This document shows positions 4,835 to 62,295 of a stretch of DNA of 64,000 bases, piece after piece. Both the position numbers and the translations under genes were made by a program. The stretch covers positions 1-64,000 of the forward strand of contig CANQAR010000005.1 in the NCBI GenBank assembly GCA_947588845.1, written 5' to 3'. Every line of letters begins with the position of its first letter. Positions within the stretch are counted from its first letter, which is position 1. The notes beneath the pieces are model-generated. The model worked only from the letters and a program-made list of their open reading frames with translations. It made no database searches and was not told the origin of the DNA. The stretch comes from an uncultured Lachnospiraceae bacterium. Its GTDB lineage: Bacteria > Bacillota > Clostridia > Lachnospirales > Lachnospiraceae.

Positions 4835-4847
4835 GAAAGCCCCGGAC

Positions 4848-5064
4848 GGCGGCCATCGACGGGCATGCTCGCATGCACCGGCGAATGGACATCGGACGGG
4901 CAAGACGGTATGAGCAATACAGCGGCGCGAACGTAAGAGAGCGACGCGGTGCCGCGTGCCAGTGACACGCGTTTGGCACCGACCGAAGCGGAGCGTAGAT
5001 TGCGAATACTGTCGGTGATGACGAGAGTGCTGAAAGCACGGAGTCATCGGCTTTCGCCCACAGC
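4848..5064 (+). repeat. Diverged copy of the multi-hairpin repeat (family A)
   Basis: This intergenic block shares an ordered set of words with the 41.9 kb and 62.1 kb elements: GGTATGAGCAA, ACAGCG, GCGAACG, TTGCGAATAC, GAGAGTGC-AAGCACGGA. It also carries an inner hairpin with CACCGACCGAAGCGG, which recurs (reverse strand) in the hairpin at 61955-62063. It is therefore a mosaic related to both. It fills most of the 270-base gap between pheA and the DUF815 gene. Confidence 0.65.
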
Positions 5065-23806: not shown

Positions 23807-23811
23807 GGGCG

Positions 23812-29800: not shown

Positions 29801-30468
29801 TCAGCGAATCCCCACGGATTTCAATGACAGAATCCGGCCGGCATCTGAAATTTGTCATTTCCACGCTTCTTGCGGGGGAGACGGCGTATATCAGTATCCC
29901 CTGCAAAGTTTCTCTGCAGGAAGGGCTGCTGGTAAATACTGCACATGTGACGTCCGTGGACGGCGTGAAAAAGGATGTGTCATCCGAGACAACGTATCAT
30001 GAAGTAGTACCGCGCGGTACGCTCAGCATCCGGAAAACGGTAAAAGGCAGTCTGGGAGATAAATCCTGGCCGTTTTCTTTCCGTCTGAAATTTACGACGG
30101 AGGAGCGGGAACTGCCCGGAGTATGGAACTGTAAGAAAGGAGATGTGGAATTTACGGTAAAACCGGACGAAGACGGATATCTGACATTCCAGCTTTCCGA
30201 CGGAGAGACCATTGAGTTTCTTGATGTGCCCCGCGGCACCGGTTATGAGGTAGAGGAAACGGATGGAGCTTCCATGGGATATGAAATCGAGGCGGAAAAC
30301 GACAGCGGGACAATCGGAGCCAATGACGTCCAGGTGTCTTTTGTCAACACGAAAAACGGCTTTGTGCCGACGGGCGTATGGAGCGGCCTGTACAAAAGTC
30401 TGACTCTGGCGCTGGCGGCTGCGGCCGCGATAATCCGGATGTTCCTCAGAAAACGAATACAGGGATAA
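23812..30468 (+). CDS. Giant pilus-tip or surface adhesin
   Basis: The product has about 2218 residues. In order: signal peptide; a Pro/Thr/Glu repeat stalk to about residue 340; BspA-like DUF285 leucine-rich repeats at about 400-520 (repeated MFYGC-GLTELDTG-WKLS); four or five InlB-type beta-grasp repeats (VTFDADGG, YYAHW endings) to about 920; a long Ig-like or isopeptide-rich region; a DUF11-like domain (YTLSVTNSGTV) near 1940; a final DUF7601-like domain; and a tail VPTGVWSG, hydrophobic helix, RKRIQG. The tail motif matches that of the major pilin, so the same sortase can join them. ATG 23812 has AAAGGAG 10 bases upstream. Binding target unknown. Confidence 0.85.
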   Translation: MKQKNSAKRMAAAMMAVILAISSAVQPGWYAAAAGPEAEHIGMETAEEKSVREPDSQPEEDRVQKMAEIVEEQDLIPPQSDVVPAAQVQGFAETEVVSPVTEAGPDVSAETLGTGAEPDVKPENPGVEQLPDVPAKTESGTEAIPEISIETEPETVPAVPAETEVSPDISVEIPATEAAPDVPEKTPVTEAAPDVSAETPGTEAVPDMPAETPGTETSPDVSVETPGTETSPDVSVETPGTETSPDVSAEDPGVEQLPDAPAKTESGTEATPDSSIETEPETAPVVPAETEEGGTPETETEEITILETELETQQDIPTEETESETEEVEEPETEAMYAILYENGELVFQKGETPDPEKGNVRESMTGFEDLRVADRYSWPWYSACRSSIRAVSFKDRFCPVSAEEMFYDCENLTSFDSRNFDTSALTSTAGMFYNCASLTTLDTGDWKLSAVTEMDNMFYGCAGLTELDTGGWKLSAVKKMDYMFYGCTGLTELNMSSWDMSGVTSMQSMFENCQLYRLVLGPMCRLESGAPAAQEEYYTQGTEISSKVRVFFDTQEGGTIDPLEITPGDVYGKTVRGIIPVREGYTFIAWHKGSLDGAVVGETDRAGQEDISLFAEWKRNPVITFDTNGGGPETSQKQVEYGGKIGTLPKYPSNGGSTAFFAGWFTEASGGDMVQPDWIVYEDVTYYAHWGWRPVFNTDGGIFTEFPEYPLQESPEYLIQALPGVRRDGFRLSGWFLADKVTEVKAGQVLDLSQGSEITAHWEPMDTVKLTLDPSPWDKEFSIYGKETYEVYRDQPVRVLPEPKNKPSDGREFLGWFDEGGTQWTVETVITEDTELHAAWSKPTVKVTFDADGGSGLSNSSLLVPAGSTIDVLPGARRNNYILEGWYTEKNGGGEKLTTETVILEETTYYAHWVSFFLNTSDQTAFYVYGAEWGNASNENVDVTGDTLIVHPTDAKEQTAQLHVRFEMNVSVGDLTLPAGTVKIQIPKYVWKDWDGNDIGTNNLSVNLPQYPDVRSGMFFSYMDEGDHYLLINNQDLSGGAGVDVVISYNVKPGDVPGGATDAQGRYVDGYEYYKGKTEVTFYVDADNNGDTETVKSKELFLEMHTRISSSPAKKLQGIYYDWQSRWGERPEDADDYFYASWELRTYFSSNTNQAGTYEWTEDGTVHDGTLVAIKGTEGTVSNVEYVSEAILRYPVELLRDAPAEGVLLHNEALLTINWKSGYKTVQKVQADKRIYRSQYPPGEFGKQRPYYSSSESERNRLIQGGQEKLVEDETDVSMQWRIVYKGGAREVPGWDEQTGTYTVPERTIRIRDGMSKDVLYSSGKPSARYVWDPETGNVELSDDDYSFTQLKVSVVEYDAECRDGLWTAEKSHSEPGDIKGVDIYIRYRGSDQLSYWTSIPGSSLKGEITVAFPEGTVGFEARHKSSFYLTKISLEVSANVHPTQTIKTLVSGDMEAGATSLIKNKAYCDVWETEKGEESAYFSATNYKGGRNSAIKEIWELNMSQTIQCACKKASKKEKVVLDVDRGTQDSPIYIAGWNYNSSGNVKQLHRGILYDLLPAGATVDVSSLFGFTVTGYTKMRPENIGDKAEQYDNYKKKTGKLSASNYDVRFSDDWKGSGRTMMTITFTLPDSPEICGVEFYYLLHNTYENILLHGTTVENDLAFVNTSSGRVRPVDVTGKQSVIEDAHLYDELQEKYEGFIAYAEASVNYIPVDAYSWGFEKSVKTYSDYRSKGEAFPGTEYTYKLSYSQSDYAESSGIVFYDLLEGGYFIQDDSGQQKMESQWHGTFTGVDVHEITQKLTGGSDTVRCSPVVWYATKDRDSFTGADFDLTRTEIWNTSPPEDLSSVTAVAVDCRKNTDGTEFALVNRQVMDVYIHMRAPENVPTDAVYTYNEGRVLAKQRNDNEPTELTSDAQVEIIAGEPELHKESDPATGTEENPAPLEQEDALNYTLSVTNSGTVRTMTDVVVEDDIPDGLDIMSSEITVWFSDAEDRLKVSESPRISMTESGRHLKFVISTLLAGETAYISIPCKVSLQEGLLVNTAHVTSVDGVKKDVSSETTYHEVVPRGTLSIRKTVKGSLGDKSWPFSFRLKFTTEERELPGVWNCKKGDVEFTVKPDEDGYLTFQLSDGETIEFLDVPRGTGYEVEETDGASMGYEIEAENDSGTIGANDVQVSFVNTKNGFVPTGVWSGLYKSLTLALAAAAAIIRMFLRKRIQG
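24325..24690 (+). repeat. Coding repeats of the adhesin stalk (39-bp units)
   Basis: Units beginning GAGACTCCAGGGACGGAA start at 24403, 24442, 24481 and 24520, an exact 39-bp period that encodes ETPGTETSPDVSV. Flanking degenerate units extend the array. A longer segment (GGAGTGGA-CAGCTGCCTGA onward, about 120 bp) occurs at about 24180 and again at about 24563, so the stalk also grew by block duplication. Confidence 0.85.
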
Positions 30469-40543: not shown

Positions 40544-40687
40544 GTTACTGTTCACTCCGTGACCAGCAACAACGCTCCGCGATGCACAGAAATGCCACTT
40601 TCGTGGCATTTCGCGCCTCAGACCTCGGGATTTCCGGGCAATTTGCCCGGAAATCACCTCGAGCTCAGCGGGGATGTGAACTGTAAC
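40544..40687 (+). mobile_element. MITE-like element, full copy 2 (144 bp)
   Basis: The ends are GTTACTGTTCAC (40544-40555) and GTGAACTGTAAC (40676-40687), inverted repeats with 11 of 12 matches. The flanks are GAGGAAGC and GAGGAAGT, an 8-bp target duplication with one change. The length equals the copy at 37404, which is in the opposite orientation. Internal stems are AAATGCCAC-TTTC-GTGGCATTT and TTTCCGGGCAA-TTTGCCCGGAAA. Confidence 0.9.
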
Positions 40688-40727
40688 GAGGAAGTTCTTT
40701 CATTTGACAGATTTGTACAATATATTA

Positions 40728-41924: not shown

Positions 41925-42139
41925 GTGAAAGTCCGTCTCTATACAGAGCAGGCGGCAAGCTTGCTTGCCAGACTGGCTCTGTATAAGAGACACAAGCAGG
42001 TATGAGCAAAACAGCGATGCGAACGAACGTGAGCAGCGCGATTTGCGAATACATGCAGGACTGTGAGAGTGCGTAAGCACGGAACAGTCCGTGGACTTTC
42101 ATCCATGGTGTTGCCCGCAACGCGGGCATGAAAGTTCAC
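41925..42139 (+). repeat. Multi-hairpin repeat, copy 1 (family A, 215 bp)
   Basis: Three large stems follow each other: GTCTCTATACAGAGC with GCTCTGTATAAGAGAC around GGCAAG-CTTGCC; GGACTGT with ACAGTCC around GTGCGTAAGCAC; and a GCCCGC-AAC-GCGGGC stem. The copy at 62074-62295 is nearly identical in reverse orientation, and 4848-5064 is a diverged relative. There is no reading frame of note. It lies within the operon leader. Confidence 0.88.
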
Positions 42140-42178: not shown

Positions 42179-42424
42179 ATGGAGACAAGGATTGCGATTA
42201 TCGGAATCATTGTGGAGGATATCGACGCCACCGGCGAGATCAATGATATTCTGCATGATTACGGGATGTATGTGATCGGAAGGATGGGGATCCCGTACCG
42301 GGAACGGAATGTGAATATCATCAGTATCGTACTTGACGCGCCGAACGATGTGATCAATGCGCTGGCCGGGAAGATCGGCCGCGTGAAAGGCGTCAGTTCA
42401 AAAACAATTTACTCAAAAATATAA
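42179..42424 (+). CDS. TM1266-type iron-hydrogenase system regulator
   Basis: The 81-residue protein matches the small ACT-like family called iron-only hydrogenase system regulator (TM1266). It begins RIAIIGIIVEDIDATGEINDILHDYGMYVIGRMGIPYRERNVNIISIV and ends GRVKGVSSKTIYSKI. Such proteins usually accompany the HydEFG maturases of [FeFe] hydrogenase. No HydE, F or G is seen here; instead it heads a nitrogenase-like operon. ATG 42179 follows AGGAGG by 7 bases. The next gene begins 22 bases later. Whether it binds DNA or a ligand is not known. Confidence 0.88.
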   Translation: METRIAIIGIIVEDIDATGEINDILHDYGMYVIGRMGIPYRERNVNIISIVLDAPNDVINALAGKIGRVKGVSSKTIYSKI

Positions 42425-42446
42425 TGCCGGGGCGAGGGAATATATT

Positions 42447-43193
42447 ATGAAGAAAATTGCGATTTACGGAAAGGGAGGCATCGGCAAGTCCACGATCGTC
42501 TCCAATCTGTCAGTGGCTCTGACGGAACGGGGACTCCGGGTGATGCAGATTGGCTGTGATCCAAAGGCAGATTCCACCTTGTCGCTGAGGCATGGGGAGC
42601 CGCTGCCGACGATCCTTGAGACGGTACGTCAGAAAAAGGATGCGTTTTCACTGGAGGAGATTACCTGTTCCGGCTACGGCGGCGTGATCTGTGCGGAGGC
42701 CGGCGGTCCGATTCCGGGACTGGGGTGTGCCGGGAGAGGCATTATCACGGCGCTGGAGAAGCTTGCGGTAAAAGGGGCATATGAGACTTTTCAGCCGGAT
42801 GTGGTGTTTTATGATGTGCTGGGGGATGTGGTCTGCGGCGGATTTTCCATGCCCATGCGCAGCGGCTACGCCGAAAAGGTGCTGATTGTGACTTCCGGGG
42901 AGAATATGTCGATCTACGCGGCGGCGAATATCGCCATGGCCATCGATAATTTTAAGGGACGGGACTACGCAGGGCTTGGCGGTCTGATTCTGAATCGGCG
43001 GAATGTGAAGGACGAAGAAGCAAAGGTGCAGACGCTGTGCGGGGATATTCACACGTCGATTGTTGGAATGATCGATCGGAGTGATTTGGTGACGGAAGCG
43101 GAGACTATGAAAAAGACAGTCATGGAGGATTTTCCGGACAGTGAGCTGGCGGAGACGTTCCGCAGGCTGGCAGAGACAATCGTTTTTTTATGA
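42447..43193 (+). CDS. NifH-like ATPase, module 1
   Basis: The 248-residue protein is a nitrogenase iron-protein homologue. The P-loop GKGGIGKST is at 8-16, CDPKADST (switch I) at 37-44, and the two cluster ligands are Cys94 in GLGCAGRG and Cys130 in [14 protein letters not shown]. Both half-sites for a dimer-bridging [4Fe-4S] cluster are intact. It should deliver electrons, with ATP hydrolysis, to the NifDK-like pair that follows. It is shorter at the C terminus than true NifH. It lies 22 bases downstream of the TM1266 gene. A second NifH-like gene at 46035 is a clear paralogue. Confidence 0.92.
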   Translation: MKKIAIYGKGGIGKSTIVSNLSVALTERGLRVMQIGCDPKADSTLSLRHGEPLPTILETVRQKKDAFSLEEITCSGYGGVICAEAGGPIPGLGCAGRGIITALEKLAVKGAYETFQPDVVFYDVLGDVVCGGFSMPMRSGYAEKVLIVTSGENMSIYAAANIAMAIDNFKGRDYAGLGGLILNRRNVKDEEAKVQTLCGDIHTSIVGMIDRSDLVTEAETMKKTVMEDFPDSELAETFRRLAETIVFL

Positions 43194-43274
43194 AATGACG
43201 GCAGGGTCGGAAGGCCATGTGTTCCATGCTGCCTTTTGTCTCAACATCATGAAAGGATGCCAGGGGAGAAAAGT

Positions 43275-43305
43275 CATGCGTTCCATGTTCGCATGGAAAA
43301 GCATG
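43275..43305 (+). promoter_or_regulatory. Intercistronic hairpin after NifH-like 1
   Basis: CATGC...GCATG encloses TTCCATG-TTCG-CATGGAA, a stem with a stable TTCG loop, in the 215-base gap between the first NifH-like and NifD-like genes. A second stem CATTTTTC-ATG-GAAAAATG follows at 43335-43353. They may set relative expression or stabilise an mRNA end. Confidence 0.5.
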
Positions 43306-43408
43306 AAACTGGGCCCAAAAAATCGAAAAGAAACCATTTTTCATGGAAAAATGCGCGGATTTGAGGCGTTTTAAAATTGCGAGAGCATGAATTGCGGAGA
43401 GATAAAAA

Positions 43409-44737
43409 ATGCTGAAACAAATACAAAGAGAGACGGATCATCCGGGCGCCGTGGTGAAGATCCGCGAGGCTGCCTGGCCGGCGCCTTTTAAAGAGGGCCT
43501 GGAGTACAGCTCGCCTGCAAGGGGAACCTGGAATATTGTACATACGGGAATGCTGATTCCTGAATCTCATCAGATCTTTGTCTGCGCGCTGGGATGTCTG
43601 CGCGGCGTGGTGCTGACGGCGGCGGAAATGAACGCGATGGACCGCTATTCTTCCGTCATTATCCGGGAGGAGAACGTGCTGGACGGCACCATGGAGGAAC
43701 TTATGATCGGGGGTGTGGCGGATGTACTTGAGAAGCTTCCCTACAGGCCGAAAGCGGTGCTTTTGTTTATCAGCTGCCAGCATTTTTTCCTGGCTTACGA
43801 CCAGCAGCAGGTGTTTGCAGCGCTCAGAGAGAAGTTTCCGGATATCCATTTTACCGATTGTTATATGATACCGACGCTTCGGAAGAGCGGCCTGACGCCG
43901 GATCAGAAAATGCGGATGCAGCTTTACAGTATGCTGGAGGACAGGCCGAAGGATTCCCGGAAAATCAATCTGATCGGGAGTAATCTGCCGGTCAGCAGAA
44001 GCAGCGAGCTGGTCTGGATGCTGGAAAACGGAGGCTATACATTTCAGAGTATTCACGACTGCCATACGTTCGAGGAGTATCTGGCGATGGCCCAGGCCGG
44101 CATGAATCTTTTTTATGAGCCTCTTGCCCGGATCGCGGCGGAGGATCTGGAAAAGCGGCTTCACCAGCCATATCTTTATATGCCGTTCACGTTTGACGAT
44201 GAAGAGCTTTCAGATGCTTACCAAAGACTGGCCGAGACGCTGCATCTTCCGGAACTGGATGAGGAACCGCTGAGAAAGCGGAAAAGAGAAGCTCTTCTGG
44301 CGGTCAGGGAGCTGATCGGCGACACGCCGGTTGCGGTGGACTATACGCTGACGTTTCGTATTTTAAGCCTTGTGAAGCTTCTGCTGACTTATGGTTTCCA
44401 TGTGACGGAGATTTACGCGGACGCTTTTCTGCCGGAGGAAAAGGCGGATTTTGAATGGATCCGGGAAAATTATCCGGAGATCCGTATAAGCTCCTGCGTT
44501 CGTCCCTGGATGCGCTTTCAGGAAAGAGAGCGGGAAGAGAAAGTGCTGGCGCTGGGACAGAAGGCGGCTTATTTTACTGGGACGGATTACTTTGTCAATC
44601 TTGTTGAGAGCGGCGGACTGTACGGGTATGACGGCGTCGTTCAGCTTGCCGGTCTGATGCGGGATGCTTTTCTGAACAGGAAAGACCGGAAAACTGTGAT
44701 TCAGAGAAAAGGGTTAGGATGTGAGAGCTGTATATGA
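43409..44737 (+). CDS. NifD-like nitrogenase component 1 protein, module 1
   Basis: The 442-residue protein has the nitrogenase component 1 fold. Candidate cluster cysteines are Cys59 and Cys63 in FVCALGCLRG and Cys123 in FISCQHFF, in the three-part arrangement of P-cluster or simple [4Fe-4S] ligands. A second Rossmann domain begins at KINLIGSNLPV, with HDCHTFEEYLAMAQAGMN in the middle. It resembles no single characterised branch that I can name (NifD, ChlN/BchN, BchY, CfbD, MarD). It overlaps the next gene by ATGA, so the two subunits are coupled. Substrate unknown. Confidence 0.85.
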   Translation: MLKQIQRETDHPGAVVKIREAAWPAPFKEGLEYSSPARGTWNIVHTGMLIPESHQIFVCALGCLRGVVLTAAEMNAMDRYSSVIIREENVLDGTMEELMIGGVADVLEKLPYRPKAVLLFISCQHFFLAYDQQQVFAALREKFPDIHFTDCYMIPTLRKSGLTPDQKMRMQLYSMLEDRPKDSRKINLIGSNLPVSRSSELVWMLENGGYTFQSIHDCHTFEEYLAMAQAGMNLFYEPLARIAAEDLEKRLHQPYLYMPFTFDDEELSDAYQRLAETLHLPELDEEPLRKRKREALLAVRELIGDTPVAVDYTLTFRILSLVKLLLTYGFHVTEIYADAFLPEEKADFEWIRENYPEIRISSCVRPWMRFQEREREEKVLALGQKAAYFTGTDYFVNLVESGGLYGYDGVVQLAGLMRDAFLNRKDRKTVIQRKGLGCESCI

Positions 44738-46014
44738 GACAGGTAGCAGGATTAATTTCAACGTACTCGTCGGATGAGTTCGGCATCTGTTCCGCGCTCT
44801 ATGAGCTGGGAGGAATGGTTGTCATGCATGACGCCTCCGGCTGCAATTCAACCTATACCACCCACGATGAGCCGCGCTGGTATGATATGGACAGCATGAT
44901 TTACATATCGGCGATCTCCGAGATGGAAGCAATCATGGGCGACGATGAGAAGCTGATCCGGGATCTGACGGAGACAGCCCTGGAGATGAAGCCGAAATTT
45001 GTGGCCGTCGTGGGAGCGCCGATCCCCTATATGATCGGAACAGATCTTCCGGCAATCGCCGCCATAACGGAGCAGGAGACCGGGATTCCCTGCATGGGAT
45101 TTGCGGCTAACGGCATGAATTATTACACGAAGGGAGTGTCCATGGCGCTTGAGGCCGTTGTCCGGCGGTTCTGCACCGGTTCGGCGGTCCGGACGGAGAA
45201 CTTATCGGTGAATATTCTCGGCGCGACGCCGCTTGATTTTTCTCTGAATGGCAGTGTGGATTCCATAAAAGACTGGATCCGGGAGAACGGCATGGACCTG
45301 GGTGCCTGTCTGTCCATGGGGAGTACGCTGGAAGATATCGCCGGGGCCGGGCGCGCGCATGTGAATCTGGTGGTGTCATACGGCGGACTGGCAGCCGCCC
45401 GTTATCTGAAACAACAATATGGGATCCCTTATGTAGTCGGCGTACCCTTTGGAGAGAAATTTCCGGCGATGCTGGCGAAAATGCTGAAGGAAGCGGCATC
45501 TTCCGGGAAGGATCTGGTGAGTTACCGGCCTGTCGGGAAAAATCAGGCTCCGCCGGGGACGGACAGCCAGAACAGCGAAGACCATTTGGCCGGAGACCGG
45601 ATAAACGGACGGCATACCGGGAAAGATGCAGATAAAACCCGAATATCTATCATCGGCGAGAGTGTTTTCTCCGCTTCCCTGGCGACGGCCATTGAACTGG
45701 ACTGCAGAATACCGACCCGCGTGCTGTGTCCGCTGGATACGGAAGATATCCTGCTTCGGGAGTGTGATCTGAGAACGCCGGAGGAGGACGACCTGATGGA
45801 ACATCTTCCGGAGACGGAGATCGTTGTCGGGGATCCGATGTACCGGGTTCTGTGCGGGAAAGATCAGCGGTTCTGCCCGCTGCCCCATGAGGCGTTTTCC
45901 GGCCGCATCTATGATCCGGTGAATCCGAATCTTGTCAACCGGAAGCTTGCGGGGGAACGCGCGTTTAGCACTCGTTTGGAATCGGCCGAAATGAAGTGGA
46001 GAGCGTGGGAATAG
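44734..46014 (+). CDS. NifK-like nitrogenase component 1 protein, module 1
   Basis: The 426-residue protein starts inside the stop of the NifD-like gene (ATGA). Its N-terminal domain has Cys19 (FGICSAL) and Cys37 in [18 protein letters not shown], the region where NifK-type subunits bind the shared cluster. [30 protein letters not shown] and a C-terminal [11 protein letters not shown] follow. A charged low-complexity linker of about 40 residues splits the last two domains (around 265-305). The DEPRW motif and layout recur in the 48.4 kb protein, so the modules are paralogous. Substrate unknown. Confidence 0.84.
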
Positions 46015-46034
46015 AAAACTGGAGGTTTTATTAT

Positions 46035-46799
46035 ATGTTAAAGCTTGCTTTATATGGAAAGGGCGGCATTGGCAAGTCCACTACCACCAGCAATCTGGCG
46101 GCGGCTTTTGCGGTTCTTGGAAAGAAAGTGATTCAGATCGGCTGTGATCCGAAAGCGGATTCCACAATCAATCTGCTGGGAGGTCATCCGGTGAAGCCGG
46201 TGATGAATTATCTGAGAGAATATGACGAGGAGCCGGAGAAGATTGAGCAGATTGCGGCCAGAGGATTCGGAGATGTTCTCTGTATCGAGACCGGAGGCCC
46301 CACGCCGGGACTTGGCTGTGCGGGGCGGGGGATCATCACCACATTCAGCCTGCTTGAGGATCTGGAGCTTTTTGAGACATACAAACCGGATGTGGTGCTC
46401 TACGATGTGCTGGGAGATGTGGTCTGCGGAGGGTTTGCCGCTCCGATTCGGGAAGGCTATGCCAGCCAGGTGCTGATTGTGACCTCCGGGGAAAAGATGG
46501 CGCTGTACGCGGCGAAAAATATCAACACGGCGGTCAGAAATTTTGAGGACAGAGGATACGCTTCTGTCAGGGGAATTATTCTGAACCGGCGGAATGTGGA
46601 GAACGAATGGGAGAAAGTCAGCGCTTTTGCAGAGGAAAATCATCTGCAGATCATCGCGGATATTCCGAGAAGTCCGGACATTATCCGGTATGAGGACGAG
46701 GGAAAGACTGTGATCGAGGGAGACAGGAATCTTCCGGTGAGTCAGAAGTATCTGGAGCTGGCAAAAATGCTGCTGGAGGAAGAAGAAAAACAAAAATAA
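46035..46799 (+). CDS. NifH-like ATPase, module 2
   Basis: The 254-residue protein is the second iron-protein homologue. It has a [10 protein letters not shown]-loop at 8-16, CDPKADST at 37-44, Cys95 in GLGCAGRG and Cys131 in [14 protein letters not shown]. It is closer in length to NifH than the first copy, and its C terminus ([14 protein letters not shown]) ends in an acidic/basic helix. GGAGGT lies 8 bases before ATG 46035, 20 bases after the previous gene. Having its own NifH-like partner suggests that each NifDK-like pair has a dedicated reductase, though cross-reaction is possible. Confidence 0.92.
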
Positions 46800-46886
46800 A
46801 ACTCAAAGGCAGCAGGGGAGCTGCGGTTCATAGTCAGAGGAGGTACGAACCGTGATGCCGGAGAGGATATGATCTGGAGGAAAACA

Positions 46887-48389
46887 ATGAACAAAACAGT
46901 TGACTGTATAACCGCCGGCGAGCTGGCAGATCTCGGAAAGGACCGGATTCCGGAGGAATTTCAGTCTTCCCGGCATCTGATCTACAGTTCGCCGGCCACC
47001 CTGGCTTTTAACTCACCGGGGGCGCAGGGGTTTGGAGTAAAGCGCGCCGGACTTGCGGTGCCGGGTTCGGTGATGCTGCTGGTGGCTCCGGGCTGCTGCG
47101 GCAGGAACACGGCGGCGCTCAACGCTTTGGGATACAGAGAGCGTTTTTTCTACCTGCTGATGGATGACACAGATATTGTGACAGGACGGCATTTGAACAA
47201 AATCAGCCAGGCTGTCCGGGAGGTGGTGGATTCTCTTAAGGAAAAGCCTACGGTAGTGATGATCTGCATTACCTGTGTGGATGCCCTTTTGGGGACGGAT
47301 ATGGAGCGTGTCTGCCGGAAAGCGTCGGAGGCGGCCGGCGTGCCGGTGCGGCCGTGTTATATGTACGCTTTGACGAGAGAAGGGCGGATGCCCCCGATGG
47401 TGCATGTCCGCAAGACCATCTATGAGCTTCTTGAAAAGAGGCCGAGAAAACGGACGGCGGTCAATCTTCTCGGCGAGTTTTCTCCTTTTATGGAAGACAT
47501 GGAGCTCTATGAGATTCTGAGGAAGCTTGGCGTCAAAAATATCCGGGAGATTTCCAGATGCCGCGATTTTGAGGAATATCTGTCCATGGCCGAGGCGAAT
47601 TTCAACATTGTGCTGAATCCGGAATGTCGTCCGGCGGCGGAAGATATCCGCAAACGTTTGGGGATTCCTTCCATTGAACTGACGAGACTTTATCAGATTG
47701 ATAAGATTCAGCATCAGTATGAACTGCTGGGAGGCGCGCTGGGGACGAAGATCGATGATCAGGTCTGGTACCAGAGTGCTAGGGAAAAGGTCGATAATTT
47801 TGGAAAAAACTATCCGAATACCCGGTTTGCCGTGGGGGAATGGCTGAACGGAAACGCGTTTGAGCTGTCTCTGGCGCTGCTTCGGTACGGACATCAGGTG
47901 ACGGAGATTTATGGAACCATCACGCCAGAACAGTTTGTCTATATACGGAAAATTGCGGAAATAAGTCCCGATACGCGCATTTATTCCAATCTGTCTCCCA
48001 CCATGCTGAATTATGACTGCAGTGTCTCTGCGGCAGATGTCACGATCGGGCAGGACGCGGCGTTCTACCATCCGGGATGTCCGAATGTACCCTGGAATCA
48101 GGAGGAGCAGCCCTTCGGTTATGCGGGGCTTGGACATTTGTTCGAGGCGCTTCTCGCGGCTCGCGAAGGAGAAAAAAGCGAGAAGATCTCAGCAACCTGC
48201 GGAGATGGAAGAGGTGAGAAGGTTCCGGTGTCCTGCGACAGAGAAAAAAGCGGAGGGATCTCAGCCGCGAGCGGAAACGGAAGCGGCGAGATGATTTCTG
48301 CAGCCCGGAAGGATGAAAAGAACAAAGCAGTTCCGACAGCTTTGGAGAGCGAAACGCAGGGAGAAAAGATCACGGGAGGCAGCGTATGA
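46887..48389 (+). CDS. NifD-like nitrogenase component 1 protein, module 2
   Basis: The 500-residue protein has component 1 features: APGCCGRNTAAL with Cys70 and Cys71, MICITCVDALLG with Cys127 and Cys130, then VNLLGEFSPF and CRDFEEYLSMAEANFN, which parallels the first NifD-like protein. After about residue 428 comes a tail of nearly three degenerate 24-residue repeats (EKSEKISA, EKSGGISA) with no counterpart in module 1. ATG 46887 follows GGAGG by six bases. The stop overlaps the NifK-like start by ATGA. Substrate unknown. Confidence 0.85.
   Translation: MNKTVDCITAGELADLGKDRIPEEFQSSRHLIYSSPATLAFNSPGAQGFGVKRAGLAVPGSVMLLVAPGCCGRNTAALNALGYRERFFYLLMDDTDIVTGRHLNKISQAVREVVDSLKEKPTVVMICITCVDALLGTDMERVCRKASEAAGVPVRPCYMYALTREGRMPPMVHVRKTIYELLEKRPRKRTAVNLLGEFSPFMEDMELYEILRKLGVKNIREISRCRDFEEYLSMAEANFNIVLNPECRPAAEDIRKRLGIPSIELTRLYQIDKIQHQYELLGGALGTKIDDQVWYQSAREKVDNFGKNYPNTRFAVGEWLNGNAFELSLALLRYGHQVTEIYGTITPEQFVYIRKIAEISPDTRIYSNLSPTMLNYDCSVSAADVTIGQDAAFYHPGCPNVPWNQEEQPFGYAGLGHLFEALLAAREGEKSEKISATCGDGRGEKVPVSCDREKSGGISAASGNGSGEMISAARKDEKNKAVPTALESETQGEKITGGSV
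48169..48384 (+). repeat. 72-bp coding repeats in the NifD-like tail
   Basis: GAGAAAAAAGCGAGAAGATC at 48169 recurs as GAGAAAAAAGCGGAGGGATC at 48241. The two 72-bp copies are followed by a third, poorly preserved one from 48313. They encode 24-residue units rich in Ser, Gly, Glu and Lys. Confidence 0.75.
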
Positions 48390-49600
48390 AAGGTTTGTTG
48401 AAATATTTGTCGCCGTTTGCGCCGGATCAGTCCGGTGCGGCCTCGGTTCTCTATGATATGGGGGGCCTGACGATTATCTGCGACGCCGGCGGATGTACCG
48501 GAAATATCTGCGGATTTGATGAGCCGCGCTGGTTCCTGAGAAAAAGTGCGATTTTCAGCGCGGGCCTGCGTGATATGGACGCGATTCTCGGAAGAGATGA
48601 CCGAATGGTGGAGAAAATCCAGGACGCGGCAAAAAAGCTGGACGCCGATTTTACGGCTCTGATCGGGACGCCGGTTCCGGCGGTGATCGCCACAGATTTC
48701 AAGGCGCTTAGCCGTATGGCCGAGAAGCGGTGCCATTTGCCTGTGCTGACAGTCGAGTGTACCGGAACGAGACTCTATGACGAGGGGGAGGCAGACACGT
48801 GGCTGGGACTTTTCCGGAAATTCGCGGGTACTGGATCAGGCACGACGGACGATGAAATAAAATCGGCAAGAGAAAAAAATTCTGCGGTCAGCGGAGCTGA
48901 AAGGAGAACTGATTCAGACAAGACAGGAACATGGGTGTCCGAAGATACGTCTGAATCCGGAGCGTATGGGAAAGGAGCCGTCGGCGTGATCGGCATGACT
49001 CCTCTGAATCTGAGCCGCATCGACGCGGACCAGATAATTCGGGATGAATTAAGAGCGCAGGGGTTCGGCCCGGTTTACTGCTACGGGATGCGGGACGGTC
49101 TGGAAACGATTAAAAAGGCCGGTGAAACGGTTCTGAATCTTGTCGTGTCGCCTTCGAGTCTTCCGGCGGCCAGATATCTGGAGCAGCGTTTTGGAACGCC
49201 CTACCGGATGGAATATCCGTTTCTTGGCGAGGAATTGAAAAAAGAGCTCCATGCGGCCGACGGGAAAAAGATACTGGTGATTCATCAGCAGGCGGCAGCC
49301 AACGCGATACGTGCGGAGCTCCGAAAGAATTCCGGGGCGGAGATAACCGTAGGAACCTGGTTTCTTCTGGATGAGGAATTTCGGGAACCACAGGATGTAC
49401 ATCTGACGACAGAGGAAAATTTTGCCAGGCTGGTGACGGAAGGACAGTACGATGTGATTGTCGGGGACCGGATGCTGGAGAGAGTGCTCCGAAATTATGA
49501 GGGCAGATGGATGCACGTACCGCATTTTGCGGTCAGCGGCGAACTGGAGGAAACGCCGGAGGAGCTTTCTTCTTGTGCCACAGGAAATTCTGTTCTGTGA
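48386..49600 (+). CDS. NifK-like nitrogenase component 1 protein, module 2
   Basis: The 404-residue protein begins in the stop of the NifD-like gene. Its N-terminal domain has Cys32, Cys37 and Cys42 in IICDAGGCTGNICGFDEPRW, directly comparable with the DASGC-DEPRW segment of the module 1 subunit. VIGMTPLNLS, NLVVSPSSLPAARYL and DVIVGDRMLERVL repeat the module 1 order. A Ser/Thr/Glu/Lys-rich linker of about 50 residues (near 148-198) interrupts the fold. A 224-base gap with a hairpin separates it from hypF. Substrate unknown. Confidence 0.84.
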   Translation: MKGLLKYLSPFAPDQSGAASVLYDMGGLTIICDAGGCTGNICGFDEPRWFLRKSAIFSAGLRDMDAILGRDDRMVEKIQDAAKKLDADFTALIGTPVPAVIATDFKALSRMAEKRCHLPVLTVECTGTRLYDEGEADTWLGLFRKFAGTGSGTTDDEIKSAREKNSAVSGAERRTDSDKTGTWVSEDTSESGAYGKGAVGVIGMTPLNLSRIDADQIIRDELRAQGFGPVYCYGMRDGLETIKKAGETVLNLVVSPSSLPAARYLEQRFGTPYRMEYPFLGEELKKELHAADGKKILVIHQQAAANAIRAELRKNSGAEITVGTWFLLDEEFREPQDVHLTTEENFARLVTEGQYDVIVGDRMLERVLRNYEGRWMHVPHFAVSGELEETPEELSSCATGNSVL

Positions 49601-49642: not shown

Positions 49643-49824
49643 CTTCAAATTCGTGCGCATCTCCGCTGACCGGAACGGAGTGGAGACCGGAATGGCAGGC
49701 TGTTGTCTGTGGAAACGCGCAGAGATTTGCGGACGAAGAAGTCTGCCGGTGCAGATCCGAATTCCACGTACAAAGTCCGCGGGTGAGTCCTGAATTGAAA
49801 GAAAAGGCAGATGGAGAACCATAT

Positions 49825-52335
49825 ATGAAAACGGATAACAGAAAAACACAGATTGTGAGAGTTTACGGCATTGTGCAGGGCGTGGGTTTTCGGCCTTTCG
49901 TGAGCCGCATCGCGGATGCGGCCGGGGTAACGGGCAGCGTGGCCAACAAAGGCTCCTATGTGGAGATTTATCTGCAGGGCAGCGAGAATGACCGGCAGCA
50001 GTTCATGAAAGATCTGCGGGAAAATCCGCCGGAGCGTTCCGCCGTTTTGAAAATTGATGTGACAGACTGTGAGAACAGCGTCTGTTTTGACCGGTTTGAG
50101 ATTATCGAGAGCGAAAAGGAAGAAGGGGATATTTTTGTGTCCCCGGATATCGCGACCTGTCCAAAATGCGCCAAAGAGCTCTATGATCCGAAAAACCGGC
50201 GGTATATGCACCCATTTATCAACTGTACTGCCTGCGGCCCCCGGGTGACAATACTCGACGCGATGCCTTATGACCGGGTGCGCACGAGCATGGGGGAATT
50301 TCCGATGTGTCCGGAATGTGAGTGGGAGTACACGCATGCCGAGACGAGACGCTACGACGCTCAGCCGGTCTGCTGCAACGACTGCGGACCCGAGGTATAT
50401 CTGCTTGGACGGCCGGAACGCAGAAGGGCAGCAATCACGGCCGCACGGCAGGCGATTATGGATGGGAAAGTTGTGGCAGTCAAGGGAATCGGCGGCTTCC
50501 ATCTGTGCTGTGATGCGACGAACGAGGCGGCAGTGTCCAGACTGCGGAGGCTGAAGAACCGGCCGGCAAAGCCGTTTGCGGTGATGATGCGGAATCTGGA
50601 AGCGGTCGAGGCAGAATGTGAGGTGACCCCGGAACAGGAAGAAGTGCTGTGTGGTCATCAGAAGCCGATCATTCTGCTTCCGAGGAAAGAAGGGAGCCGT
50701 CTGGCACCTTCCATAGCGCCGGATAATCCGAAGGTGGGCGTGATGCTTCCATATGCGCCGGTGCAGATGCTGCTGTTTGACTACAATGACGGACTTCAGA
50801 TGACGACGGATATGTTTGTCATGACCAGCGGAAATGTATCCGGGGCTCCGATCTGCCGGACGGACGAGGACGCCGAAAAAGAGATCGCTTCATTCTGCGA
50901 TCTGATTTTATCCCATAACCGGAAAATCCGCCTGAGAGCCGACGATTCGGTGATGGATTTTTATAAAGGGGAGCCTTATATGATCCGCCGTTCCAGAGGC
51001 TACGCCCCGCTGCCTTTTATGATGAGCAGGGAATTCAAAGGGCAGGTGCTGGCGATCGGCGGCGAGCTGAAAAATACATTCTGCATTGCAAAGAACCAGC
51101 TGTTTTACCCGTCGCCCTATGTCGGTGACATGGAGGATCTCCGCACGGTGCAGGCGCTTCGCGAATCAGTCCGCAGAATGGCGGAGCTTCTTGAGACGGA
51201 GCCGGAGATTGTGGCCTGCGATATGCACCCGAAATACAATACGACGGCCGTTGCTCATGAACTGGATCTTCCGGTAATCGAGGTGCAGCATCATTATGCG
51301 CATATTCTCTCCTGTATGGTGGAGAACGACTATCTGGAGCCGGTGATCGGCGTCTCGTTTGACGGAACGGGCTATGGGACGGACGGTACGATCTGGGGAG
51401 GCGAGATTCTTGAGGCTTCGCCGGAAGATTTCAGAAGACTGGGAAATATCCGGCCATTCCATCAGATCGGCGGCGACGCGTCCGCCCGGGAAGGCTGGAG
51501 AATCGCCGTATCCATGATCAATGATCTCTATAAAGACAGGGCGCCGGAGATTGTCGGAAAGCTGGAGCTCTGCGATGAGAAGACAAGGAAGGTATACGCG
51601 CAGATGGCCGCGCGTCACATTAATTGTGTGACATCCACCAGCGCCGGGCGTCTTTTCGACGCGGTGAGCGCTATTCTTGGAATTCGAAAGGCTTCGACTT
51701 TTGAGGGGGAGGCAGCCACGGTTCTTCAGTTTAGAGCGGAAAAGTATGCATCGGGACTTTCAGAGGAGGAATTTTCCAGAGAATGTCAGGAGGCCAGGGA
51801 GCAGGTCAGACAGATATGGCCGGATGATATGTATGAAGCAGAATGCCCGACAGGGCCGAATTGTTCATCTGGCGGGAGAACGAACGAACATGAGAAAAAA
51901 AAGAACCAGGAAAATTCACGATCAGGCGTTTTGTTTGGCGGGAGCATGAATCCGGCAGAGTCGGATAAGAAAGAGAATGACGATCCAGGCAGTGCGCAGT
52001 GGATTCTCCCGACAGACCAGATCGTGCGTCTGCTCGTTGAGAAACGGCTGAGTGGTGAAACGACGGAACGGCTGGCCTTCTGGTTCCATGTGCTGCTGGC
52101 TGATCAGATCATGGAAGGATGCAGAAAAGCGGCAGAGGAAACGGGACTTCGTGTCTGTGCTTTAAGCGGCGGTGTATTCCAGAACCTGCTTCTGCTTCGG
52201 CTCTGTGATGAGGGATTGACGCGGGAAGGATTTCAGGTGCTGCGGCATCGCCTGCTTCCGCCAAATGACGGGGGAATTGCTCCCGGGCAGGCGCTTGCAG
52301 CCATGTATGCGCTCATGGGGAAATCCGCCATCTGA
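49825..52335 (+). CDS. hypF: Carbamoyltransferase HypF
   Basis: With start ATG 49825 (GGAGA 7 bases upstream), the protein has 836 residues. Its domains are in the HypF order: acylphosphatase (GIVQGVGFRPFV), two C4 zinc fingers (CPKC...CTACGPR; CPEC...CCNDCGPE), a YrdC-like domain (KGIGGFHLCCDATNE) and a Kae1-like domain (EVQHHYAHILSC, GVSFDGTGYGTDGTIWGGE, ALSGGVFQN). It transfers the carbamoyl group that becomes cyanide to HypE. A low-complexity linker of about 50 residues rich in Asn, Glu and Lys lies within the Kae1-like domain (about 680-730). No hypA or hypB adjoins it. Confidence 0.93.
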   Translation: MKTDNRKTQIVRVYGIVQGVGFRPFVSRIADAAGVTGSVANKGSYVEIYLQGSENDRQQFMKDLRENPPERSAVLKIDVTDCENSVCFDRFEIIESEKEEGDIFVSPDIATCPKCAKELYDPKNRRYMHPFINCTACGPRVTILDAMPYDRVRTSMGEFPMCPECEWEYTHAETRRYDAQPVCCNDCGPEVYLLGRPERRRAAITAARQAIMDGKVVAVKGIGGFHLCCDATNEAAVSRLRRLKNRPAKPFAVMMRNLEAVEAECEVTPEQEEVLCGHQKPIILLPRKEGSRLAPSIAPDNPKVGVMLPYAPVQMLLFDYNDGLQMTTDMFVMTSGNVSGAPICRTDEDAEKEIASFCDLILSHNRKIRLRADDSVMDFYKGEPYMIRRSRGYAPLPFMMSREFKGQVLAIGGELKNTFCIAKNQLFYPSPYVGDMEDLRTVQALRESVRRMAELLETEPEIVACDMHPKYNTTAVAHELDLPVIEVQHHYAHILSCMVENDYLEPVIGVSFDGTGYGTDGTIWGGEILEASPEDFRRLGNIRPFHQIGGDASAREGWRIAVSMINDLYKDRAPEIVGKLELCDEKTRKVYAQMAARHINCVTSTSAGRLFDAVSAILGIRKASTFEGEAATVLQFRAEKYASGLSEEEFSRECQEAREQVRQIWPDDMYEAECPTGPNCSSGGRTNEHEKKKNQENSRSGVLFGGSMNPAESDKKENDDPGSAQWILPTDQIVRLLVEKRLSGETTERLAFWFHVLLADQIMEGCRKAAEETGLRVCALSGGVFQNLLLLRLCDEGLTREGFQVLRHRLLPPNDGGIAPGQALAAMYALMGKSAI

Positions 52336-52341
52336 TACAAG

Positions 52342-52360
52342 CAAAACGAAGATCGTTTTG
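52342..52360 (+). promoter_or_regulatory. Small hairpin between hypF and hypC
   Basis: CAAAACGA-AGA-TCGTTTTG is an 8-bp stem with a three-base loop six bases after the hypF stop. It has no proper T run and may be an attenuating or stabilising stem. Confidence 0.4.
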
Positions 52361-52458
52361 TCATTTCCTGTAAAAATGTGGGAGCAGAAAATATCTGCAG
52401 ACTAAAGTCAGCGTTTTTTGATATATGCTGCGCGAGTTTAAAAAAGGAGGATTTAAAA

Positions 52459-52668
52459 ATGTGTGTAGGATTAGCGGCAAAAGTGGTAGGAATTAAGAAC
52501 GGGATGGCAGTGATTGACGCTTCCGGCGCGAAGAGGGAAGTATCAGCGGAACTTCTGGACGAGCTGGAGCCGGGAGATTATGTGATGGTTCACGCAGGCG
52601 TCGCCATCGCGAAGATTACGTCGGACGACGAGAGTGAGACGGACGAGCTGATGGAGATGCTGTCATAA
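52459..52668 (+). CDS. hypC: Maturation chaperone HypC
   Basis: The 69-residue protein begins MCVGLAAKVV, with the invariant Cys2 that HypC uses to hold iron together with HypD. GAKREVSAELLDELEPGDYVMVHAGVAIAKIT completes the OB fold. The start at 52459 is fixed by AAGGAGG nine bases upstream and by the invariant N terminus. HypC also shuttles the Fe(CN)2CO group to its target protein. In this locus the target is not obvious. It is followed by hypD after 66 bases. Confidence 0.95.
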   Translation: MCVGLAAKVVGIKNGMAVIDASGAKREVSAELLDELEPGDYVMVHAGVAIAKITSDDESETDELMEMLS

Positions 52669-52734
52669 GACGAAATTTCCTAAGACAAAAAATAAGGTTC
52701 TGCGCTGCAGAACAGAAAACAGGAAGTATTATAT

Positions 52735-53784
52735 ATGGAAGAAAAGAAAATGACGGCGAAAGAAATTATTGAATCGTATGATGGTCCGAAGCTGCGGATC
52801 ATGGAAGTGTGCGGAACGCATACGCATGAAATTTTCAGGCTGGGGATTCGGAAAATTCTGCCGAAAAATATTGAGCTGATATCCGGACCGGGATGTCCGG
52901 TATGCGTGACGCCGGTGTCTTTTATCGATGAGGCGGTCATGCTGGCTCTGGAAAAGCAGGCGGTGGTCTGTACGTTTGGGGATCTGATTCGGGTTCCGGG
53001 AACGAAGATGAGTCTGGCTGGAGCGCGGGCGGAAGGAGGAACGGTGAAGATCGTCTATACGCCGCTGGATGCGGTCGATTATGCCAGAAATCATCCGGAA
53101 GAACAGGTGGTCTTCCTGGCGGTGGGATTTGAGACGACGACGCCTGCGGCCTGTCTCGCGGTTAAGAAAGCGAAGGAAGAGGAGCTTGCGAATTTCTCAA
53201 TCCTGACAGCCAACAAGACGATGCCCAACGCTTACCAGGCCCTGAAAGGAAGCGCCGATGCGTTTCTTTATCCGGGACATGTGAACGCCATAACAGGGGA
53301 AGAGGAGTGCCGGCGGCTGGCCGAGGAGGACGGCATTTCCGGCGTGATCGCCGGTTTTACCGCGAAGGAGATTCTGACGGCGCTGGCAGTGATTATCGAG
53401 AAGTCACAGACGGGAAAACCGTTTTTTGTCAACTGCTATCCGAGAGTCGTGCGGCCGGAAGGAAGTCCGGCAGGACGCAGAATTATAGAAGAAGTCATGG
53501 AAGAGTGCGATACTGAGTGGCGCGGACTTGGCGTGATCCCGATGTCAGGGCAGCGTCTGAAAGAGGCTTACCGGGATTACGATGCCCGGATAAAATTTGC
53601 CCTTCCTCATATTGAAGGAAGACCCAATCCGGCCTGCCGGTGCGGCGAGGTGCTTCAGGGAAAGTGTCTGCCTCCCGACTGCAAGGTATTTGGGAAGGGC
53701 TGCACGCCGCAGCATCCGATTGGGGCCTGCATGGTATCCAACGAGGGAACCTGCTCCGCTTACTACCAGTATGGAGGAATCTGA
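52735..53784 (+). CDS. hypD: Fe(CN)2CO scaffold protein HypD
   Basis: The 349-residue protein is HypD. Key residues are Cys26 in MEVCGTHTHEIFR, and Cys54 and Cys57 in SGPGCPVCVTP, with FLAVGFETTTPA in the next domain. The C-terminal cysteine-rich domain (ACRCGEVLQGKC, PPDCKVFGKGCTP, IGACMVS) binds a [4Fe-4S] cluster. HypCD carries the iron while HypE supplies cyanides. The gene follows hypC and precedes hypE by 33 bases. Length and motifs are complete, so the pathway looks functional. Confidence 0.95.
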   Translation: MEEKKMTAKEIIESYDGPKLRIMEVCGTHTHEIFRLGIRKILPKNIELISGPGCPVCVTPVSFIDEAVMLALEKQAVVCTFGDLIRVPGTKMSLAGARAEGGTVKIVYTPLDAVDYARNHPEEQVVFLAVGFETTTPAACLAVKKAKEEELANFSILTANKTMPNAYQALKGSADAFLYPGHVNAITGEEECRRLAEEDGISGVIAGFTAKEILTALAVIIEKSQTGKPFFVNCYPRVVRPEGSPAGRRIIEEVMEECDTEWRGLGVIPMSGQRLKEAYRDYDARIKFALPHIEGRPNPACRCGEVLQGKCLPPDCKVFGKGCTPQHPIGACMVSNEGTCSAYYQYGGI

Positions 53785-53817
53785 AGATTACAGTATAGAA
53801 AGAGGATGAAAAGAATT

Positions 53818-54825
53818 ATGGCAGAGAAAAAAGTAACGCTGGCGCATGGAGCAGGCGGCAGGCAGACTGCAGAACTGATTCACGAGGTCTTTCAGGCGCA
53901 TTTTGCCAACCCGGAATTTACGGCGGACGACGCCGCGGTATTGTCGGTGGAAAAAGGCCGGATTGCGATGACGACGGACGGCTTTATTGTGTCGCCCTAT
54001 GAGTTTAACGGCGGAAATATCGGAAAGCTCAGCATCTGCGGGACGGTGAATGATCTGGCCTGTATGGGCGCGAAGCCGATGTATATGACCTGTTCTTTCA
54101 TTATAGAGGAGGGTTTTCCCATGGACAAGCTGGAGATGATCGCGGCATCCATGGAGAAGACGGCAAACGAGGCCGGCGTAAGGATTGTGGCCGGGGATAC
54201 AAAGGTGGCCGGAAAGGGCCAGGTGGATCATGTTTTTATCACTACCGCGGGCATTGGGAGGATTGAGGAGGATGTACATACCTCCGGCGCCTTCGCGAAG
54301 CCGGGGGATGTGGTGATCGTGACCGGGGATATCGGAAGGCATGGCTGCACGATTCTGCTTGCCAGGGAAGACCTCGGCATCGAGGCGGATATCAAAAGCG
54401 ACTGCGCGCCGCTATGGGGAACGGTGGAATCGATGCTGAATGTCACAAAAGATATTCATGTTATCCGCGACGCGACGAGGGGCGGCGTGGGGACTGTTCT
54501 CTATGAGATCGCGGCGGAGAGTGGCGTCGGAGTTTCGCTGGATTCCCAGTCAGTTCCGGTGGATGGTGCGGTCAGAGGCGTCTGCGGTATGCTCGGACTG
54601 GATCCGCTGTATCTGGCCAATGAGGGAACGCTGGTGGTGATCGCTCCGGCAGATAAGGCGGAGCTTCTCCTGGAAGCTCTTCATAAAGGAAAATATTCCG
54701 CAAATGCGGCGGTGATCGGGAAAATAACGGAAGAAAATCCGGGCAAAGTTGTCATGACAACGGAAATCGGGGCTCAGACGCTGCTTCCGCAGCCGGGAGG
54801 AGAGCTGTTGCCGAGAATCTGCTGA
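53818..54825 (+). CDS. hypE: Carbamoyl dehydratase HypE
   Basis: The 335-residue protein has the PurM-like fold, with LAHGAGGRQTAELI, DDAAVLSVEKGRIAMTTDGFIVSP, NDLACMGAKP and VVAGDTKV. It ends in PRIC, whose terminal cysteine is carbamoylated and dehydrated to thiocyanate. I prefer ATG 53818, since ATG 53806 begins directly on the AGAGG box. It completes a hypF-C-D-E set, the cyanide and carbonyl iron branch. HypA and HypB, the nickel branch, are not in the window. Confidence 0.94.
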   Translation: MAEKKVTLAHGAGGRQTAELIHEVFQAHFANPEFTADDAAVLSVEKGRIAMTTDGFIVSPYEFNGGNIGKLSICGTVNDLACMGAKPMYMTCSFIIEEGFPMDKLEMIAASMEKTANEAGVRIVAGDTKVAGKGQVDHVFITTAGIGRIEEDVHTSGAFAKPGDVVIVTGDIGRHGCTILLAREDLGIEADIKSDCAPLWGTVESMLNVTKDIHVIRDATRGGVGTVLYEIAAESGVGVSLDSQSVPVDGAVRGVCGMLGLDPLYLANEGTLVVIAPADKAELLLEALHKGKYSANAAVIGKITEENPGKVVMTTEIGAQTLLPQPGGELLPRIC

Positions 54826-55744: not shown

Positions 55745-55867
55745 GTGCAACACGCTCTACGATGCACAGAAATGCCACTTTCGTGGCATTTCGCGCCTCA
55801 GACCTCGGGATTTTCAGAAAATCTGCCCGGAAATCACTTCGAGCTCAGTGGAGATGTGAACCGTAAC
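55745..55867 (+). mobile_element. MITE-like element, 5'-truncated copy
   Basis: It matches the copy at 40544 from the CAAC-ACGCTC region through the AAATGCCAC-GTGGCATTT stem to the right end GTGAACCGTAAC (55856-55867). The left terminal repeat is missing, and no target duplication is visible. It sits against the 3' end of the nucleotidase gene. Confidence 0.8.
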
Positions 55868-55902
55868 AGATGTTCAGCAGTCTGGCATCATATAACGGCA
55901 TT

Positions 55903-59851: not shown

Positions 59852-60222
59852 GAACTTTTGAAAGGAACCATACCGCTGGATAATGAAAAATTGAAAAAGC
59901 TGGAACATAACCAGTACGCTGCAGAAAAAAAGCTGACCGCTGCCCAGCACAAAGAAAAGTGATTGAGGAACGGGTTGAAACTGCTGACCAGAAGCGAGAG
60001 AACGTTACTGTTCACTCCCTTGCAGGTCGTGAACGTAACAACGCTCCGCGATGCACAGAAATGCTGCTTTCGCAGCATTTCGCGCCTCAGACCTCGGGAT
60101 TTCCGGGCAATTTGCCCGGAAATCACCTCGAGCTCAGTGAGGGTGTGAACTGTAGCGAGAGAACACATCGGCTTTGTATCCGCGCCGGTATGCTGGAAAC
60201 GTGCTGTAAAGAAGTCCGATAA
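59852..60222 (+). pseudogene. DUF3847-like gene, broken by a nonsense codon and an element insertion
   Basis: One frame reads NEKLKKLEHNQYAAEKKL, AAQHKEK, a TGA at 59960-59962, then LRNGLKLLTRSER. The MITE-like element (60004-60156) follows, and after it the same protein resumes as THRLCIRAGMLETCC. Excising the element plus one target duplication restores SERTHRLCIRAG exactly. The pattern resembles small DUF3847-type proteins of integrative elements (recalled, not searched). The 5' end is also damaged: a stop lies at 59849 in this frame. The gene is inactive by two independent lesions. Confidence 0.6.
60004..60156 (+). mobile_element. MITE-like element, full copy 3 (153 bp)
   Basis: The ends are GTTACTGTTCAC (60004-60015) and GTGAACTGTAGC (60145-60156), 10 of 12 inverted matches. 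A perfect 8-bp duplication GAGAGAAC flanks it at 59996-60003 and 60157-60164. It interrupts the DUF3847-like gene. Internal stems are AAATGCTGC-TTTC-GCAGCATTT and TTTCCGGGCAA-TTTGCCCGGAAA. It is nine bases longer than the other full copies, the extra bases lying near the left end. Confidence 0.92.
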
Positions 60223-62073: not shown

Positions 62074-62295
62074 CAGTAAACTTTCATGCCCTGCGAGGCA
62101 GGGCACTACCATGGATGAAAGTCCACGGACTGTTCCGTGCTTTCGCACTCTCACAGTCCTGCATGTATTCGCAAATCACGATGCTCACGTTCGTTCGCAT
62201 CGCTGTTTTGCTCATACCTGCTTGTGTCTCTTATACAGAGCCGGTCTGGCAAGCAAGCTTGCCGCCTGGCTCTGCATAGAGACGGACTTTCACAG
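62074..62295 (-). repeat. Multi-hairpin repeat, copy 2 (family A)
   Basis: On the minus strand this reads CTGTGAAAGTCCGTCTCTAT, GGCAAGCTTGCTTGCC, AAGCAGGTATGAGCAAAACA, TTGCGAATACATGCAGGACT and so on, nearly base for base as copy 1 at 41925-42139. Most differences are paired changes in stems (for example CCCGC-GCGGG against CCCTGC-GCAGGG), so structure is kept. Confidence 0.88.

Follow-up and report, generated by a model that had tools for sequence, protein, structure and literature searches.

HydG, a radical-SAM enzyme that cleaves tyrosine, is regarded as supplying the active site (the H-cluster) of [FeFe]-hydrogenases with its CO and CN ligands, and HydE with the Fe(CO)2(CN) unit that it normally receives. 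By known chemistry, HypF, HypC, HypD and HypE of the HypABCDEF system yield Fe(CN)2CO, with the C-terminal cysteine of HypE forming the thiocyanate. A third group of systems, comprising NifDK/NifEN, DPOR BchLNB, CfbCD, MarHDK and NflHDK, pairs a NifH-like ATPase with a heterodimeric D/K fold and cysteines in the P-cluster region; we found no hydrogenase-maturation role for nitrogenase-like proteins in open-licence PMC papers. Here, we analyzed a stretch of 64 kb (the window) from the genome of an uncultured Lachnospiraceae bacterium (positions 1 to 64,000 of contig CANQAR010000005.1), in which genes of the latter two kinds stand side by side. The comparative evidence points strongly to ten of them, H1-D1-K1-H2-D2-K2-hypF-C-D-E, being a module that replaces HydG in [FeFe]-hydrogenase maturation.

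A 2022 survey of acetogens (PMC9431212) reported that Clostridium ljungdahlii and its relatives possess HydE and HydF without an identifiable HydG, and HypCDEF without HypA or HypB. The survey treats these two gaps as separate, unexplained puzzles, and nitrogenase-like genes go unmentioned (the sole “nitrogenase” stands in a reference title). In the open-licence PMC literature, we found no paper linking Hyp proteins, nitrogenase-like genes and [FeFe]-hydrogenase maturation; such a link may have been described elsewhere.

The assembly under study (G000; 5.06 Mb, 97% complete), whose closest database relative is a Lachnospiraceae metagenome-assembled genome, carries in the window a run of genes on the + strand separated by short gaps. 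A TM1266-like regulator and two NifH-NifD-NifK-like sets (together 42179–49600) are followed directly on the 3′ side by a complete HypF-C-D-E group (49819–54825). The genome also encodes HydE (584 bits; cut-off 255), HydF (551 bits; cut-off 326) and [FeFe]-hydrogenases of group A (458 and 416 bits; cut-off 406) and group B1 (589 bits; cut-off 450), one of which has the intact H-cluster motifs TSCCPAW, MPCTAKKYE and MACRGGCVMGG. HydG was not found in G000: its top match, at 167 bits, is ThiH. Compared with HydE-HydF-HydG maturation, this genome keeps HydE, HydF, TM1266 and HydA, with the H-cluster as the target; it differs in that the ten-gene module is present and HydG is absent.

Could a HydG have been overlooked? 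Matches of 160–230 bits were ruled out as divergent versions of the enzyme, given that the G000 match proved to be ThiH and that E. coli also yields a sub-threshold match. A gap in the assembly was likewise ruled out, as HydG is missing from all eight module genomes of the family sample described below (96–99% complete) and was also lacking in 48 of 50 further module genomes, among which are complete ones. Separately, one genome of the sample, G082, was seen to encode a second HydG homologue (472 bits; contig C50, 33114–34532) alongside its normal HydG (926 bits).

We surveyed 150 genomes from this family, each from a different genus. HydF scored over its cut-off in 86 of them and HydG in 73. 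All eight genomes with the module were HydF-positive, lacked HydG and encoded PF02906 proteins; among the 78 HydF-positive genomes without the module, HydG was present in 69 (Fisher's exact test among HydF-positive genomes, 5e-7; the genomes represent different genera, with kinship uncorrected). An alignment-based scan with D2 of 84,980 GTDB species genomes then gave 494 stretches encoding a D2 relative, of which the best 80 were retained, many of them interrupted by contig ends. Among these 80 loci, H2 was present in 79, K2 in 77, HypF in 71, K1 in 65, D1 in 64 and HypD in 61. Module loci came from Lachnospiraceae, Clostridiaceae, other Bacillota, Lentisphaerota and one metagenome-assembled genome of the Coriobacteriaceae. 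In 48 of 50 module genomes derived from the scan, HydG was not found; the isolates without it included C. ljungdahlii, C. ragsdalei, C. carboxidivorans (a complete chromosome), Roseburia faecis, Anaerobutyricum hallii and E. ramulus.

The module is also physically joined to [FeFe]-hydrogenase maturation genes. Locus L131 reads TM1266-HydF-HydE-H1D1-K1-H2-D2-K2-hypF-C-D-E, and L097 reads HydE-HydF-H1-D1-K1-H2-D2-K2-hypF-C-D-E. TM1266-HydE precedes the module in L148 and L150, HydE-HydF follows it in L103, and genomes G025, G069 and G083 likewise hold HydE/HydF in one gene run with it. Within 10 kb of the module, HydF occurs in 19 of the best 80 loci and TM1266 in 35. The TM1266-like protein of the window (42179–42424, +; PF21699, 109 bits; TIGR03959, 114 bits against a cut-off of 60.8) is a putative regulator of [FeFe]-hydrogenase systems. 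The gene hypC is missing from most operon maps on account of a cut in open reading frame (ORF) length and was detected there by tblastn. No extra gene family within the module recurred in four or more loci.

Two genomes have a variant without Hyp genes. In G117 (L056, 5531–14622), HydE-H1-D1-K1 is accompanied by a three-gene BtuCD/FecBCD-like importer, HydF and TM1266; the arrangement in G134 (L057, 7085–13653) is similar and adjoins HydF. Neither genome has HydG or Hyp genes. Because D1K1 orthologues stand here beside HydE and/or HydF in the absence of Hyp proteins, D1K1 seems to go with HydE/HydF and D2K2 with HypFCDE. The importer may scavenge what HypFCDE and D2K2 would make. More distant NifHDK-like sets, unlinked to HydF, were also observed (L058 in G048, L061 in G059, L062 in G004, L060 in G143 and L059 in G072); behind several of them lies what looks like an ABC importer (substrate-binding protein, permease and ATPase), and the sets belong to an orphan nitrogenase-like family.

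The Hyp genes themselves are bona fide. All four are on the + strand and full-length: HypF, a carbamoyltransferase with acylphosphatase, zinc-finger, YrdC and Kae1-like domains (49819–52335; TIGR00143, 740 bits, cut-off 466); the chaperone HypC with its N-terminal MCVG (52453–52668; PF01455, TIGR00074); the [4Fe-4S] scaffold HypD with Cys26/54/57 and a cysteine-rich tail (52735–53784; TIGR00075, 394 bits); and HypE, ending in PRIC (53806–54825; TIGR02124, 424 bits). A preliminary description of this DNA had reported the group as complete with its cysteines, and every one of these residues was verified. In related loci that carry the respective gene, the HypC cysteine is invariant in 65 of 65, HypD Cys26/54/57 in 66 of 66 and the terminal cysteine of HypE in 64 of 64, and the zinc-finger cysteines of HypF are invariant in 67 sequences. 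The Hyp genes are therefore under selection.

Such genes invite the reading that they mature a [NiFe]-hydrogenase in the usual way, and that hypA, hypB and the enzyme itself are encoded elsewhere; the full-length HypFCDE, and the PF00374 proteins in 12 of the 50 scan-derived module genomes, would fit it. However, no [NiFe] large subunit was seen among the ORFs of the window, just as the preliminary description had stated, and PF00374 has no match anywhere in G000. The top HypB match in that genome (79 bits; cut-off 121) is the urease protein UreG (374 bits). HypA was not noticed among the window's ORFs, and no genome-wide search for it was made. PF00374 was also not found in seven of the eight module genomes of the family sample, nor in 38 of the 50 from the scan. 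The eighth, G069, has a PF00374 protein and both kinds of HypD, on two contigs, the second hypD being hydrogenase-linked. The preliminary description had named a [NiFe]-hydrogenase with hypAB elsewhere in the genome as the finding that would make this merely a split maturation locus; as far as the large subunit and HypB are concerned, no such finding emerged, and a split locus was ruled out.

The descent of HypD points the same way. HypD scored over its cut-off in 23 of the 150 family genomes and is present as a single copy in G000. In eight of the 23, including G000, it stands beside nitrogenase-like genes and is 65–77% identical to the HypD of the window, while hydrogenase-linked HypD proteins are 39–45% identical to it; G051 has a HypD of the non-module type with neither a nitrogenase-like nor a hydrogenase partner. 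In a tree of 45 HypD proteins, all 33 module copies fall on one side of a long-stem branch (support 100). Module HypD is its own clade, separate from [NiFe]-linked HypD. The module thus shares with HypABCDEF maturation the four proteins HypF, HypC, HypD and HypE with all their catalytic cysteines; it differs in lacking HypB (in G000) and usually a [NiFe] large subunit, in its own HypD clade and in its constant nitrogenase-like neighbours. We regard an ordinary [NiFe] role as highly improbable.

Indeed, the nitrogenase-like genes are constant members of the module. The preliminary description had correctly placed them next to the Hyp genes, where two NifH-D-K-like sets precede hypF. Our results support its proposal that the iron branch of Hyp works for a nickel-free target; it did not name that target, which our comparisons indicate to be the [FeFe]-hydrogenase H-cluster in genomes lacking HydG, and its treatment of the nitrogenase-like genes as mere neighbours does not hold. 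All six lie on the + strand. In set 1, H1 (42447–43193; PF00142, 287 bits), a NifH-like ATP-dependent reductase with a Walker A motif and Cys94/Cys130, precedes the NifD/NifE-like D1 (43409–44737; PF00148, 42 bits; profile match to NifE) and its NifK-like partner K1 (44734–46014; PF00148, 110 bits; profile matches to NifE, NifD and DPOR-B). Set 2 consists of a second NifH-like, ATP-dependent reductase, H2 (46035–46799; PF00142, 290 bits; Cys95/Cys131), the NifD/NifE-like D2 (46887–48389; PF00148, 101 bits) and the NifK-like K2 (48386–49600; PF00148, 53 bits). AlphaFold models of D1 (pLDDT 90) and D2 (mean pLDDT 79) match the folds of nitrogenase, NifEN, DPOR and methylthio-alkane reductase.

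With NifH-like ATPases, D/K pairs of the PF00148 fold and cysteines in the P-cluster region, these proteins resemble the named nitrogenase-like families, and NifEN ranks with the closest profile and fold matches of the D/K proteins. They differ in that all of the NifH-, NifD- and NifK-like proteins, H1 included with respect to nifH, score below the NCBIfam equivalog cut-offs, so that no true nitrogenase was recognized, and in that two HDK sets are joined to HypFCDE. Alignments show conserved Cys59/63/123 in D1 together with an invariant Cys37 in K1, and Cys70/71, 127/130 and 157 in D2 together with invariant Cys37 and Cys42 in K2. These cysteines hint at a bound Fe-S cluster and ATP-dependent electron transfer, with room for one [4Fe-4S] cluster in D1K1 and perhaps for a larger one in D2K2. 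At the C-terminus, most D1 proteins carry a conserved Gly-Cys-x2-Cys tail, which may be where a metal or cluster is handed over.

Two HDK sets resemble a catalyst/scaffold pair of the NifDK/NifEN type, and the profile and fold matches to NifEN and nitrogenase are in keeping with this. HypFCDE and both sets might then build a new Fe-CN-CO cofactor for one of these nitrogenase-like complexes, which would be a new enzyme, the loss of HydG being coincidental and HydE/HydF drawing on free CO and CN or on an unseen source. A passage of PMC9431212 cites in vitro activation of about 1% by HydE plus HydF without HydG. Against a separate cofactor stand the near-exclusive exchange with HydG, the operons that hold HydE/HydF together with the module, the TM1266 regulator, and the occurrence of D1K1 beside HydE/HydF where Hyp genes are absent. 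We consider it quite unlikely.

If the module takes the place of HydG, do the two feed the same HydE? In a quick HydE tree, with transfer of HydE itself possible, the proteins from module genomes and from HydG genomes interleave, and well-supported branches force at least four label changes. Co-divergence of HydE with the module was tested and not found. HydG and the module seem to have been exchanged repeatedly beside the same HydE; this suggests that the species handed over by the module equals, or is equivalent to, that from HydG, and HydE seems to be the same whichever route supplies it.

Comparative genomics gives good support both to the tie with [FeFe]-hydrogenase maturation and to the replacement of HydG: gene content, linkage in operons, the lack of HydG, the presence of [FeFe]-hydrogenases and the separate HypD clade were directly observed. 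The chemistry is our proposal, and we infer the module's function, the order of steps and the product. We lean toward a second natural route to the H-cluster in hundreds of anaerobes, in which some bacteria use an ABC importer in place of the Hyp half. By known Hyp chemistry, HypF and HypE would make cyanide from carbamoyl phosphate, and HypC-HypD would bind iron and load CN and CO onto it. The D2K2/H2 and D1K1/H1 complexes, driven by ATP, may act as scaffolds or reductases that add CO and/or swap CN for CO, giving an Fe(CO)x(CN) unit that would serve as HydE's synthon. From this unit HydE and HydF would make the azadithiolate-bridged 2Fe subcluster and load HydA with it, as in their known chemistry. 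With one CN per iron, the H-cluster is richer in CO than the Hyp product, which is why the nitrogenase-like complexes may supply CO, remove CN or provide NifEN-like scaffolding.

A variant within this explanation, rather than outside it, is that HydE/HydF receive from the module merely free CO, free CN or both (or iron), with HypCDE delivering no intact Fe-CO-CN synthon. Reduction of CO2 to CO is within the reach of nitrogenases and Fe proteins, which would suit this variant. Preparations of HydE/HydF can also take up free CO and CN (PMC9431212). However, HypC and HypD, the iron scaffold, are fully conserved beside HypF and HypE, favouring an iron-bound unit over free cyanide, and we judge delivery of free ligands to be unlikely, if somewhat less so than a separate cofactor.

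Several observations weigh against a HydG-replacing module. Nine HydF-positive genomes of the sample have neither the module nor a full HydG (G047 has a broken partial copy), and four of the nine, two of them incomplete, have no candidate replacement at all: G114, G122, G011 (86% complete) and G128 (69% complete) combine HydF and an [FeFe]-hydrogenase with neither HydG nor a nitrogenase-like set. True HydG accompanies the module in two of the 50 scan genomes, C. drakei and C. thailandense. The genome-wide HydF and [FeFe]-hydrogenase findings come from the family sample. In the 12 scan genomes with a PF00374 protein, HypFCDE may serve a [NiFe] enzyme as well. Labels are clustered in the HydF tree, which lends interchangeability weaker support than the HydE tree does. 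The ligand ratio of Fe(CN)2CO differs from that of the H-cluster, and an unproven conversion is needed. Finally, the function assigned to the module comes from comparative genomics rather than biochemistry.

Our HydG assignment in C. drakei agrees with that of PMC9431212. The same survey assigned HydG by motifs to C. autoethanogenum, which lies outside the genomes tested here; its close relative C. ljungdahlii has the module and lacks HydG. According to a passage of the survey citing Wang 2013, the [FeFe]-hydrogenase HytA was purified from C. autoethanogenum, which we count in favour of the proposed replacement.

If correct, the replacement of HydG by this module would mean that two unrelated natural routes lead to the same organometallic cofactor, the second being a junction of [NiFe]-maturation with nitrogenase-type chemistry. 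Active [FeFe]-hydrogenase in many gut fermenters and industrial acetogens that lack HydG would be explained, as would both gaps of the 2022 survey. A widespread orphan nitrogenase-like family would gain a role, as would HypFCDE outside [NiFe] enzymes, and a HydG-free gene set would become available for [FeFe]-hydrogenase production.

Other features of the window were also recorded. Clostridiales-1 RNAs (RF01699) occur three times, at 4834–5056 (+), 41927–42100 (+) and 62117–62291 (−), the second immediately upstream of the module. A 123-nt interspersed repeat has three copies (40568–40690, 55748–55870 and 60037–60159; 86–93% identity to the reference copy). At 23803–30468 lies a gene for a putative surface protein of 2221 residues with N-terminal 39-nt tandem repeats (24259–24602) and pilin-like and sortase-like genes nearby.

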